In this document: positions 9,629 to 52,040 of the stretch, piece after piece | How positions within the stretch are numbered: position 1 is the first letter of the stretch | How the letters are laid out: each line of letters opens with the position of its first letter | Assembly (NCBI GenBank): GCA_030432595.1 | Contig: JAUIGU010000003.1 | Span: forward strand, 62,001-126,000 | Direction: 5' to 3' | DNA length: 64,000 bases | Origin: Phycisphaerae bacterium | GTDB lineage: Bacteria > Planctomycetota > Phycisphaerae > Phycisphaerales > Phycisphaeraceae | Notes under the pieces: generated by a model | Databases searched by the model: none | The model's input: the letters and a program-made list of their open reading frames with translations, nothing else | What the model was told of the DNA's origin: nothing | Translations under genes and position numbers: made by a program

Positions 9629-9706
9629 CCGGACCACCGGTCGCTGACGCTCCCGGCTCTGTGTGCAGTTGAATGTCAGAGCCGGGAGCGTGAGCGACCG
9701 GTCCGG
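9629..9706. repeat. Inverted repeat, family A
   Basis: Arms 9629-9661 and 9677-9706 are reverse complements over 29 of 30 aligned bases; the left arm carries three extra bases. The core is GAGCCGGGAGCG followed by an AGCGACCGGT-type end. The same core recurs at 51961-52013. The element fills the gap between two co-directional minus-strand genes. It could fold into a strong hairpin in the mRNA. Confidence 0.85.
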
Positions 9707-10934: not shown

Positions 10935-12110
10935 TCAGGTCGTCGCCGTTTCGTGGCGGAGTTGCCCGCACGCGGCGGCGATGTCCCGGCCGCGACTGGC
11001 GCGGATGTGCGTATTGATGCCGGCCCGCTTGAGCGTCTCCTGGAACCGGTGGACGTCGTCGGTGCCCGGCCGCTGGTACGGCAGGCCCGCGACCTCGTTG
11101 TAGCGGATGAGGTTGACGTTCCCGCGCAGTTTGCGTGCGACCTGCGCAAGCTCTTTTGCGTGCTCGGCCTGGTCGTTGACGCCGCCGAGCAGGATGTATT
11201 CGAGCGTCACCTCGCGGCCGGTCTGGTCGAAATAAAACTGCCCGGCGTCGATCAACTCGGCGACGGTGACGAACTTCGCCCAGGGGATGATCTCCCGCCG
11301 GATGTCGTCGTTCGGGGCGTGCAGCGAGATGGCGAGTGTGATGGGCAGGTCGAGCTGCGCGAGCTTGCGGATGCCGGGCACGACGCCAACGGTGGACACC
11401 GTCACCTTGCGGGCCGAGAGGTTCAGGCCCCAGTCGGCGGTGAGGGTGCGCAGCGCCCGCGTCACGTTCGGCAGGTTCGCCAGCGGCTCGCCCATGCCCA
11501 TGAACACGACGTTGGTCACGCGGCAGATCGCGTCGTTCTGCGACGCCAGCATGGCCGAGAGCTGCCACGCCTGCTGCACGATCTGCCCGGCCGTGAGGTT
11601 GCCGTCGAGCCCACCGAGCCCGGACGCGCAGAACCGGCATCCCACCGGGCAGCCGATCTGCGAACTGATGCACGCGGTGCGCCGCTTGGGCGTAGGGATC
11701 ACGACGCACTCGGTCTGTTGGTCGGGGTTCAGGGTCCGGGGTTCGGGGTACAGAGCCAGCGGATTTGTCGCATCATCTTTCGCGTCCTGCTTTGCGGTGC
11801 TTCCTCCTGCACCCTGAACCCTGTCCCCTGAACCCTGCAACACCCCCCAATCCACGAGCAGCTTCTGCGTGCCGTCGGTCGCGCGTTGGTGACGCACGAC
11901 ATCGCCGCGCACGAAGCAGATGGACTCGCCCAACACGTCCCGATCGCGGGCCGAGAGGTTCGTCATGGCCCGCGGGTCGGTGACGTTCCGCCGGTACACC
12001 CAGTCGAGGACTTGGGCCGCGCGGAACCGAGGCATGCCCGCGTCGGCGACGACACGCTGCAAGCCGTCGGGGTCGAGGTCGAAGAAGTGTGGGCGGGCGT
12101 CGGCCGACAT
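10935..12110 (-). CDS. rlmN: 23S rRNA / tRNA adenine-C2 methyltransferase RlmN
   Basis: The 391-residue radical SAM enzyme methylates C2 of A2503 in 23S rRNA and A37 in some tRNAs. The cluster motif CPVGCRFC is intact. The two catalytic cysteines are also present, one in TACISSQIG upstream of the cluster and one in the C-terminal DIAAACGQL. The N-terminal domain (HFFDLDPDGLQRVV) is normal. The odd part is an extra segment of about 42 residues between LVDWG and TECVVIPT, encoded by an inverted-repeat element (11726-11841). It falls in a loop between the accessory domain and the radical SAM barrel, and the frame stays open, so the enzyme is probably active. The gene stands alone, 36 bases upstream of the amidohydrolase start on the same strand. 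Confidence 0.93.
   Translation of the reverse strand: MSADARPHFFDLDPDGLQRVVADAGMPRFRAAQVLDWVYRRNVTDPRAMTNLSARDRDVLGESICFVRGDVVRHQRATDGTQKLLVDWGVLQGSGDRVQGAGGSTAKQDAKDDATNPLALYPEPRTLNPDQQTECVVIPTPKRRTACISSQIGCPVGCRFCASGLGGLDGNLTAGQIVQQAWQLSAMLASQNDAICRVTNVVFMGMGEPLANLPNVTRALRTLTADWGLNLSARKVTVSTVGVVPGIRKLAQLDLPITLAISLHAPNDDIRREIIPWAKFVTVAELIDAGQFYFDQTGREVTLEYILLGGVNDQAEHAKELAQVARKLRGNVNLIRYNEVAGLPYQRPGTDDVHRFQETLKRAGINTHIRASRGRDIAAACGQLRHETATT
11726..11841. repeat. Heptad inverted repeat inserted in frame in rlmN
   Basis: On the plus strand the left arm is four 7-mers, GGTTCAG, GGTCCGG, GGTTCGG, GGTACAG (11726-11753). The right arm is five, CTGCACC, CTGAACC, CTGTCCC, CTGAACC, CTGCAAC (11807-11841). 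CTGAACC is the exact reverse complement of GGTTCAG. Arms 11727-11753 and 11807-11833 pair at 22 of 27 positions around a 53-bp spacer. The whole element is translated as part of RlmN without interrupting the frame. Confidence 0.85.
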
Positions 12111-28260: not shown

Positions 28261-28549
28261 AACCGCCAAGGCGCCAAGAACGCCGAGTCAGGGGAGAATC
28301 AGGTGGCCGCAGATTTCGCAGATGGACGCAGATTGGTCGTACAGGTTCTCGCGGGCGCTGAGGATTTCGTGATTGGGCAACGTCAGAGGTTTGAGGTCAG
28401 CTGCAGTGGCTCTCGTATTCTGTCGAAGCACACTTTTCATCGCACAACTCCATTGCTTGGCTTCGCTTGGAATGAATCTGCGTCCATCTGCGAAATCTGC
28501 GGCTAACCGCCTTGCTGCTTTGCACGGCGGTCTTGGCGTCTTGGCGGTT
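28261..28549. repeat. Nested inverted repeats between rimB-like gene and rimK
   Basis: The outer arms, 28261-28284 and 28526-28549, pair at 22 of 24 bases and contain CCGCCAAGGCGCC. The inner arms, 28306-28334 and 28475-28503, are a perfect 29-bp inverted repeat containing GCAGATTTCGCAGATGG. Each arm holds internal direct repeats of GCAGAT or GCCAAG with a spacing of 8-10 bases. The right outer arm is inside the coding region of the upstream protease gene and supplies its last codons. Nothing in the 140-bp core resembles a transposase. Confidence 0.9.
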
Positions 28550-30885: not shown

Positions 30886-30985
30886 TAGACAGGAGCCAGT
30901 CGTCAGAAGGCAGGCGTTGTGAAAGCAACCGAGTTCCTTGATGCTGACTACTGACTACTGACTACTGACTACTGACTACTGACTA
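30886..30985. repeat. Heptad inverted repeat between tadB and tadC
   Basis: The right arm is six perfect tandem copies of CTGACTA (30944-30985) plus a partial copy. The left arm is four degenerate heptamers TAGACAG, GAGCCAG, TCGTCAG, AAGGCAG (30886-30913), matching TAGTCAG, the reverse complement of CTGACTA. The spacer is 30 bases. The array ends eight bases before the tadC start codon, so copy-number change would alter the leader but not a reading frame. Confidence 0.93.
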
Positions 30986-30993
30986 CTGATTCC

Positions 30994-31899
30994 ATGAACC
31001 TCCTGATCCTCCAACTTGCCGCGAGCGTCGCCGTGTTCTTCGGCGTGTTTTTGCCGATCTGGGTGCTGTTCCGGCATCCGGTGCGTCACGAAGCGCCGGC
31101 GCACCGGCGGATCGCGCGGGCGGTGGGGGCGGACAAGCCGACCGTGTTCGAGCAGCCGGTGCTCGGGCAGGCGTTGGCGGTGGTGACGGACCTGTCGGGT
31201 CGGCTGGATTTGCCGGGGCTGCGGGCGCGGATCCGTCAGGACCTGGACGCGTCGGGCAACGCGTCGGGGTACACGGTGGACCAGTACCTGACGCTGTGCC
31301 TGGTGTCGGCGATGGCGGCGGTGTTGCTGGGCGGGCTGGCGGAGTTGTCGCTGGGGGGCGGGTTGCTGCTGCTGGTGGTGCCGTTTTTCCTGGCGGTGGG
31401 TTTTTACCTGCCGTTGATGCTGTTGGGCGGCGCGCGGCAGCGTCGGGTGGTGCGGATCGCGAAGCAGTTGCCATACACGCTCGACCTGGTCGCGTTGGTG
31501 ATGCAGGCCGGCTCGGGGTTTAATGAGGCGGTGGAGACGCTGGTGCGCGACGACCCGGACGACGACCTGAACCAGGAGCTTCAGCTCGCGCTCAACGAGA
31601 TGAAGTTCGGCACGTCGCGCGCGGCGGCGCTGCAGAACCTGGCGGACCGCATCCCGCTGGAGACGCTGCGCAGCGTGATCGCGGCGGTGAACCAGGCGGA
31701 CATGCTCGGGTCGCCGCTGGCGGAGATCCTCAAGACGCAGGCGGACATGCTGCGGAACCTGCGGGCGGTGACGGCGGAGAAGAAGTCGGCGTCGGCGTCG
31801 CTGAAGATTCTGATCCCGTCGATGCTGATCCTGATGGCGGTGGTGCTGGTGGTGTTCGGCCCGGTGTTGATCCGGTTCTTTCGGGGAGAGCTGTATTGA
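30994..31899 (+). CDS. tadC: Tad secretion inner-membrane protein TadC (type II secretion F domain)
   Basis: The 301-residue protein has an N-terminal helix (LILQLAASVAVFFGVFLPIW), a central helix pair near residues 105-150, the GspF domain (QLPYTLDLVALVMQAGSGFN, TLRSVIAAVNQADMLGSPLA), and a terminal helix (LMAVVLVVFGPVLIRFF). It partners TadB in the Flp/Tad pilus platform. Its stop codon overlaps the TTG start of the FHA gene, so translation is probably coupled. No normal ribosome binding site precedes its ATG because the heptad array occupies the leader. Confidence 0.88.
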   Translation: MNLLILQLAASVAVFFGVFLPIWVLFRHPVRHEAPAHRRIARAVGADKPTVFEQPVLGQALAVVTDLSGRLDLPGLRARIRQDLDASGNASGYTVDQYLTLCLVSAMAAVLLGGLAELSLGGGLLLLVVPFFLAVGFYLPLMLLGGARQRRVVRIAKQLPYTLDLVALVMQAGSGFNEAVETLVRDDPDDDLNQELQLALNEMKFGTSRAAALQNLADRIPLETLRSVIAAVNQADMLGSPLAEILKTQADMLRNLRAVTAEKKSASASLKILIPSMLILMAVVLVVFGPVLIRFFRGELY

Positions 31900-51906: not shown

Positions 51907-51960
51907 GCGGGCATCGTACACGGCGGGCCAAGGCATGCATTCAAACCACGAAAACCTGTT

Positions 51961-52013
51961 GCTCAGGCTCCCGGCTCTGAACGAGCAATACAAACAGAGC
52001 CGGGAGCGTCAGC
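51961..52013. repeat. Inverted repeat, family A (second copy)
   Basis: Arms 51961-51979 and 51995-52013 pair at 17 of 19 bases around a 15-bp spacer, and the right side continues into AGCGACCGGT. It shares the GAGCCGGGAGCG core with the copy at 9629-9706. It lies between two co-directional minus-strand genes. Confidence 0.85.
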
Positions 52014-52040
52014 GACCGGTTGCCTCGGAACTCAAAACCA

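Follow-up and report, generated by a model that had tools for sequence, protein, structure and literature searches.

Inverted arrays of seven-base words in Phycisphaerales genomes, with one copy in frame in rlmN

Among the tandem repeats in intergenic DNA of prokaryotes, a period of seven is the most abundant, and it has no known function (PMC6344855). The nearest known kind to the repeats described below are the quadruplex-forming heptads GGGNATC and GGGGA(C/T)T of Xanthomonas and Nostoc (Rehm 2015, PMC4692102). These are degenerate, G-rich and found genome-wide in arrays of at least two and typically about four units near stop and start codons; 89-93% of them are intergenic, and convergent inverted pairs are frequent (70 in Xcc, 75 in Xac). 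Two other systems are relevant. One is TAACTGA, a dispersed heptamer repeated directly in Beggiatoaceae, cyanobacteria and Bacteroidetes, mostly just upstream of start codons (PMC4679880). The other is the Rickettsia palindromic elements (Ogata 2000, 2002), which a review describes as sitting in frame in unrelated protein genes (PMC10969869), in families of about 150 bp whose encoded peptide is conserved. The present analysis concerns the gene rlmN of a Phycisphaerae bacterium, which carries an inverted pair of heptad arrays in frame; the gene lies in a stretch of 64,000 nucleotides (contig JAUIGU010000003.1, positions 62,001 to 126,000), called the window hereafter.

The rlmN element can be read as one copy of a dispersed inverted-heptad family, formed by the copying of words from a genomic pool during repair and kept where it does no harm, and we give this reading about an even chance. 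The copies are numerous, their arm order is strict, their words are those of the species, and the same permissive loops are reused by different words. From these regularities we infer how new copies are laid down. The features of the locus are as follows.

10935-12110, minus strand: rlmN, a dual-specificity RNA methyltransferase of 391 residues, recognized as an open reading frame (ORF) with phmmer matches to the RlmN structures 6fz6 and 3rf9.
11715-11846, minus strand: variable linker with the element, codons 89-132, between ...KLLVDW and TECVV, delimited by the ortholog alignment and by the AlphaFold2 predicted local distance difference test (pLDDT).
11725-11753, plus strand: arm 1, four GGGNNNN heptads, plus-strand letters GGGTTCA GGGTCCG GGGTTCG GGGTACAG; the pyrimidine-rich arm of the coding strand.
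11754-11806, no strand: spacer of 53 nt, unlike the spacers of 28 other copies.
11807-11835, minus strand: arm 2, four GGGNNNN heptads, minus-strand letters GGGTTCA GGGGACA GGGTTCA GGGTGCAG; the purine-rich arm of the coding strand.

The two convergent arms are 29 nt long each and 83% complementary. The first-pass annotation of this DNA had described four heptamers facing five across 53 bases; the inverted arrays and their separation are confirmed, and the unit count becomes four in each arm. It had also stated that the frame is kept and the catalytic cysteines are intact, which is borne out: the ORF is open throughout the element, which is part of residues 89-132, and the cysteines of CxxxCxxC and C381 are invariant. 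An ortholog of rlmN is present in 57 of the 61 genomes searched (own genome counted). The pattern (GGGTTCA)2GGG, with up to three mismatches, has 8 matches in the window against 0.2 expected, and 7 of the 8 fall within the element. Folded as RNA, the element is far more stable than shuffled sequence (z = -5.8). An Rfam search of the window returned a tRNA and nothing else.

Is the insert simply a domain of RlmN, or else a conserved functional loop? The preserved frame and the hydrophilic character of the loop speak for this, yet there is no conservation between species, and similar peptides (GSGDRVQGAG...PEPRTLNP) appear in DnaG, TsaD, BioA and others. The AlphaFold2 model, built on 35 sequences, has a predicted template modelling score of 0.89 and pLDDT values of about 87-98 over most of the protein, in contrast with 43-56 over residues 91-130, a loop between strands 82-87 and 132-139; such low values are consistent with disorder, although they are no proof of it. 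Conservation of the same insert in distant planctomycetes, which the first-pass annotation had named as the sign of a true domain, was not found; other species have other words at this loop. A domain is barely credible, and the conserved catalytic residues suggest that RlmN is functional with the element in place.

The host genome (G000, Phycisphaerales, 4.39 Mb) holds many other arrays. A two-unit pattern with up to two mismatches has 38 matches genome-wide versus 0 for the reversed control. The pattern (GGGNNNN)3GGG has 271 overlapping matches, for which a reversed control is uninformative because the pattern is symmetric; the control is equally uninformative for GGGTTCGGGGTTCGGGG at 3 mismatches, where the reverse of the second word class looks like the first class. 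Pairs were surveyed in 978 kb of G000, contiguous and unselected, and in about 400 kb each of the genomes G057 and G045, mostly around known hits, so that these last two inform on arm order and frame and not on density. In the G000 sample, which comprises three contigs, a motif scan found the G-rich arm first in 12 of 12 pairs and no pair in any of the other three arrangements. A scan blind to the unit, which covered tandem periods from 4 to 12 in the three genomes, gave 28 inverted pairs at period 7 against a total of 5 at periods 4-6 and 8-12, and the purine-rich arm came first in all 28. The family design is a purine-rich array of 7-base words followed by its pyrimidine-rich complementary array, with an unrelated spacer in between.

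A central question is whether such elements move as units. The first-pass annotation had held that they move, and a palindromic element carried as a whole by a transposase (the mode proposed for Rickettsia palindromic elements, REP/REPIN and miniature inverted-repeat transposable elements) would produce copies that are dispersed, palindromic and in frame in unrelated enzymes. Y1 transposase genes are present in 49 of 61 genomes and show a weak correlation with heptad counts (rho 0.32, p 0.01, phylogeny uncorrected). In G000, a strong single heptad array lies about 1 kb from one of the three Y1 matches, and no inverted pair of the motif scan flanks any of them. However, across the 29 pairs collected the spacers are mutually unrelated and the heptad words are the sole common part, which argues against unit transposition, as does the coexistence of several words in one genome. 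Moreover, the Y1 matches of G000 are weak and only three in number, and the tested words are few in many of the Y1-rich genomes of family f5. Transposition of a unit is consequently unlikely, and the claim of movement is not supported in that form, the copies sharing words and not spacers. The spacer was also considered as native linker sequence, a reading that was rejected, the spacers having no excess similarity to same-genus linkers (p 0.59).

Of the 29 pairs collected, ten occupy in-frame positions in conserved enzymes, namely RlmN, LysS, HisF, TsaD, DnaG, TrpE, BioA, LipB, NadE and a UDP-sugar epimerase; these names were read from sequence, and solved homologs were confirmed for five (LysS, HisF, TsaD, BioA and RlmN). 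In the unit-blind set, which covers three genomes, 7 of 27 pairs are in frame within genes. Of the same-strand pairs, 11 are not in frame. In 10 of these the distance from the upstream stop codon to the pair is at most 19 nt, and a possible start codon follows each of the 11 at 3-68 nt; at one of them (C38:222586) the upstream gene is ambiguous. No frame-breaking insertion was identified among the copies examined, all of which are in frame or in intergenic gaps, and this is the pattern that selection against damage would leave.

Two in-frame cases have features of their own. BioA (L031) seemingly has two insertions, the GGGTTCR pair and a second one of about 34 residues (MADGGWRMADG...HPPSAIPHPPSS), whose translation resembles the GATGGCG word class. 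In G045, the in-frame inverted pair at L381 11170-11278 has very unequal arms, of 27 and 65 nt.

Comparison with solved enzymes gives net inserts of +40 residues in LysS (at a single joint), +51 in HisF, +32 in TsaD, +31 in BioA and +38 in RlmN (against 6fz6). In G001, a relative of the same genus, the corresponding loops are short and heptad-free: 14 versus 42 residues in lysS, 13 versus 41 in tsaD, 12 versus 39 in trpE and 11 versus 60 in lipB. At these four genes the first expectation, that the element is absent from relatives, holds well. At rlmN it does not hold within the order, where the linker varies from about 6 to 44 residues and where G001 has 41 heptad-free residues against 44 here; in most distant bacteria the linker is short and uniform. 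The alignment of RlmN from related Phycisphaerae, proposed as a check, thus did not show flanks directly joined, and the roughly 42 extra residues first claimed for RlmN are extra relative to the canonical enzyme only, not inside an order whose linker is naturally variable. The inserts are in frame, recur and are absent at most orthologous sites, and the claim that the host protein tolerates them is upheld as far as sequence comparison goes.

The words themselves are informative. The unit-blind set includes GGGTTCG, TAGTCAG, GATGGCG, GCGGAAC, GGAGTGC, AATGACC, ATGGAAA and GAAACTC, and words such as AATGACC indicate that G-runs are not required. Several words coexist within one genome, those of G000 being GGGTTCR, GGGTCTG/GGGCTTG, TAGTCAG and GATGGCG. 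Genome-wide counts were made for three words, and genomes bearing a word in rlmN are enriched in it. The counts are specific to the genome, with GCGGAGT at 57 in G041, 125 in G045 and 0 in G057, GCGGAAC at 44 in G057 and 26 in G049, and GGGTTCR at 80 in G000. The rlmN linker has GCGGAGT in G041, the GGAGTGC type in G045, GCGGAAC in G057, GGGAGCA in one arm in G054 and the ACTTCCG type in G062 (from the translation, at a contig edge), and no heptads in G049, G053, G061, G063 (which shares its genus with G041) and G064. Other loops are reused as well, in lipB (G010, G012, G045), dnaG (G028), hisF (G026), tsaD (G010) and nadE (G041, G049). The same loops with different words in each species imply that they are hit repeatedly, each time by local words. 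A further GCGGAAC-type array is present in the rlmN of G057 (C1:5148836-5148856, near L113), apparently in a second variable stretch.

Could the arrays be a selected structural signal, that is, an RNA hairpin or a G-quadruplex regulating expression or mRNA stability? The hairpin is strong (z -5.8 for the rlmN element), many copies lie between stop and start codons, and (GGGNNNN)4 can form quadruplexes, as close relatives of the repeat do in vitro (PMC4692102). Yet the arrays are in frame in many unrelated enzymes while missing from most relatives' orthologs, and words of the AATGACC, ATTGCAA and CGATTTT types have no G-run. Quadruplex formation cannot then be the common function, and the quadruplex was rejected as a common denominator; we consider a structural signal of either kind very unlikely.

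Another explanation is growth in place, by slippage at a chance heptad in a loose linker followed by fold-back template switching, with neither a pool nor an insertion. The abundance of heptamers in prokaryote intergenic DNA (PMC6344855) agrees with this, as do the long rlmN linker of the same genus even without heptads and the pairs whose arms mirror each other perfectly, down to the variant words (G045 lipB and L383). Nevertheless, one genome has identical words at unlinked sites, an outcome that is not expected of random seeds and that argues against purely local slippage; fold-back should yield both arm orders, whereas 28 of 28 pairs have one; and the arms generally do not mirror each other's word order. 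Over 26 pairs, words are common to both arms and their order is not (p = 0.28), so that mirrored order is unsupported as a general rule; in the second word class of G000 taken alone, the order is common to both arms (p = 0.001). Growth in place is therefore unlikely, and arms that share words and not order fit arms drawn mostly separately from a common pool.

Copying from such a pool could proceed as follows. Heptad words from the genome's own pool would be copied in at a break or a stalled fork, by microhomology-primed repair synthesis plus slippage, each side of the break would gain an array, and filler would close the junction. The product would survive only where harmless: in the gap from a stop codon to the following start codon, or in a surface loop if its total length is a multiple of three and free of stops. 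Being in frame and survivable, the RlmN element would be translated as a disordered loop of 40-odd residues without a function of its own. Several points weigh against this reading: no copying event has been seen; break repair alone gives no reason for the constant purine-arm-first order; the perfect-mirror pairs suggest fold-back copying at least sometimes; the lack of function of the loop is judged from its patchy presence only; and a clean insertion at rlmN is unproven, the same-genus linker being about as long.

The strict arm order, which ordinary repair does not explain, is the most interesting loose end. One tentative answer, itself rather improbable, is a polarised end-healing resembling telomere addition, in which purine-rich heptads supplied by a source resident in the genome would be added to both 3' ends of a break, before filler joins the two. 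If true, arm order, common words, unrelated spacers and the period of seven would all come from one mechanism, which would also account for the dominance of heptamers among prokaryote tandem repeats. A reverse transcriptase of the RVT_1 family was considered as the template source and is disfavoured, as there is none in the heptad-rich G045 (97% complete); the correlation of RVT_1 with heptad counts has p 0.09.

Further repeats accompany those discussed so far. The window contains a second inverted pair.

30886-30989, plus strand: pair with the word TAGTCAG/CTGACTA (RNA fold z = -3.3).

Its purine arm (30886-30913) is degenerate, with TAGACAG GAGCCAG TCGTCAG AAGGCAG, and is followed by the spacer; the pyrimidine arm (30944-30989) consists of 6.6 perfect CTGACTA units and ends 4 nt before an ATG at 30994. 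The word TAGTCAG is also that of pairs in C17 and C38. In the same-genus relative G001, a single array of at least 11 perfect GGGTTCA units (C219:19323-19420, L269) had no partner arm in a pattern search. Another dispersed hairpin, ACCGGTCGCTGACGCTCCCGGCTCTG / CAGAGCCGGGAGCGT..., of REP-like size, is found in the window at 9636-9702 and 51953-52021, and a half-copy of it adjoins a single heptad array upstream of an rplU-like gene (L010). Lastly, positions 28306-28334 and 28475-28503 form a perfect 29-nt inverted repeat (GCCGCAGATTTCGCAGATGGACGCAGATT) with a spacer of 140 nt.

What makes this system attractive is the sharpness of its rules, with inversion almost confined to period 7, a single order of arms and words particular to each species. 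Together with natural in-frame insertion sites in structure-solved enzymes, these rules make it possible to test how the repeats arise as well as how proteins tolerate them, and the system offers a possible route for the repeated, independent lengthening of loops in essential enzymes. It also carries a warning for annotation, because disordered loops resembling GSGDRVQG/PEPRTPNP in Phycisphaerales enzymes are DNA repeats, not domains.

How does the family stand among known systems? Degenerate heptanucleotide repeats also pair across the P6b stem of the cyanobacterial tRNA-Leu intron; unlike the pairs described here, they are confined to one intron and not dispersed in proteins. The TAACTGA repeats differ in being direct and almost never inverted, with coding copies mostly at ORF ends (PMC4679880). 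REP and REPIN sequences with their Y1 transposases are likewise dispersed hairpins, but they consist of a fixed palindrome of 20-40 bp with a GTAG or CGTC tag (PMC3733652) and have no heptad arrays. Searches of an open-access library turned up no account of inverted heptads that recur within enzymes in frame, or within planctomycetes, which is not proof of absence.

The likeness to Rickettsia palindromic elements, first proposed for the rlmN insert, extends to palindromes that are recurrent, dispersed, tolerated and in frame in unrelated genes (ten hosts here). It ends at the unit: there is here no whole-element consensus with a conserved peptide, and the arm words are shared while the spacers of the 29 copies are unrelated.

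The repeats of Rehm 2015 remain the closest, having in common with the present ones the GGG tandem heptads, the four units per arm and the dispersed convergent pairs (12 of 12 in the 978 kb). Unlike them, the present family lacks the strong intergenic preference of about 90%, with 7 of 27 pairs (unit-blind) or 10 of 29 (collected) in frame; the words of G000 are not of the GGGNATC type, and words differ between and within genomes; and some words have no G-run, the arm-order rule covering all. G-rich convergent heptads are thus already known, and it is the in-frame siting in enzymes and the differing words that set the present family apart from them.
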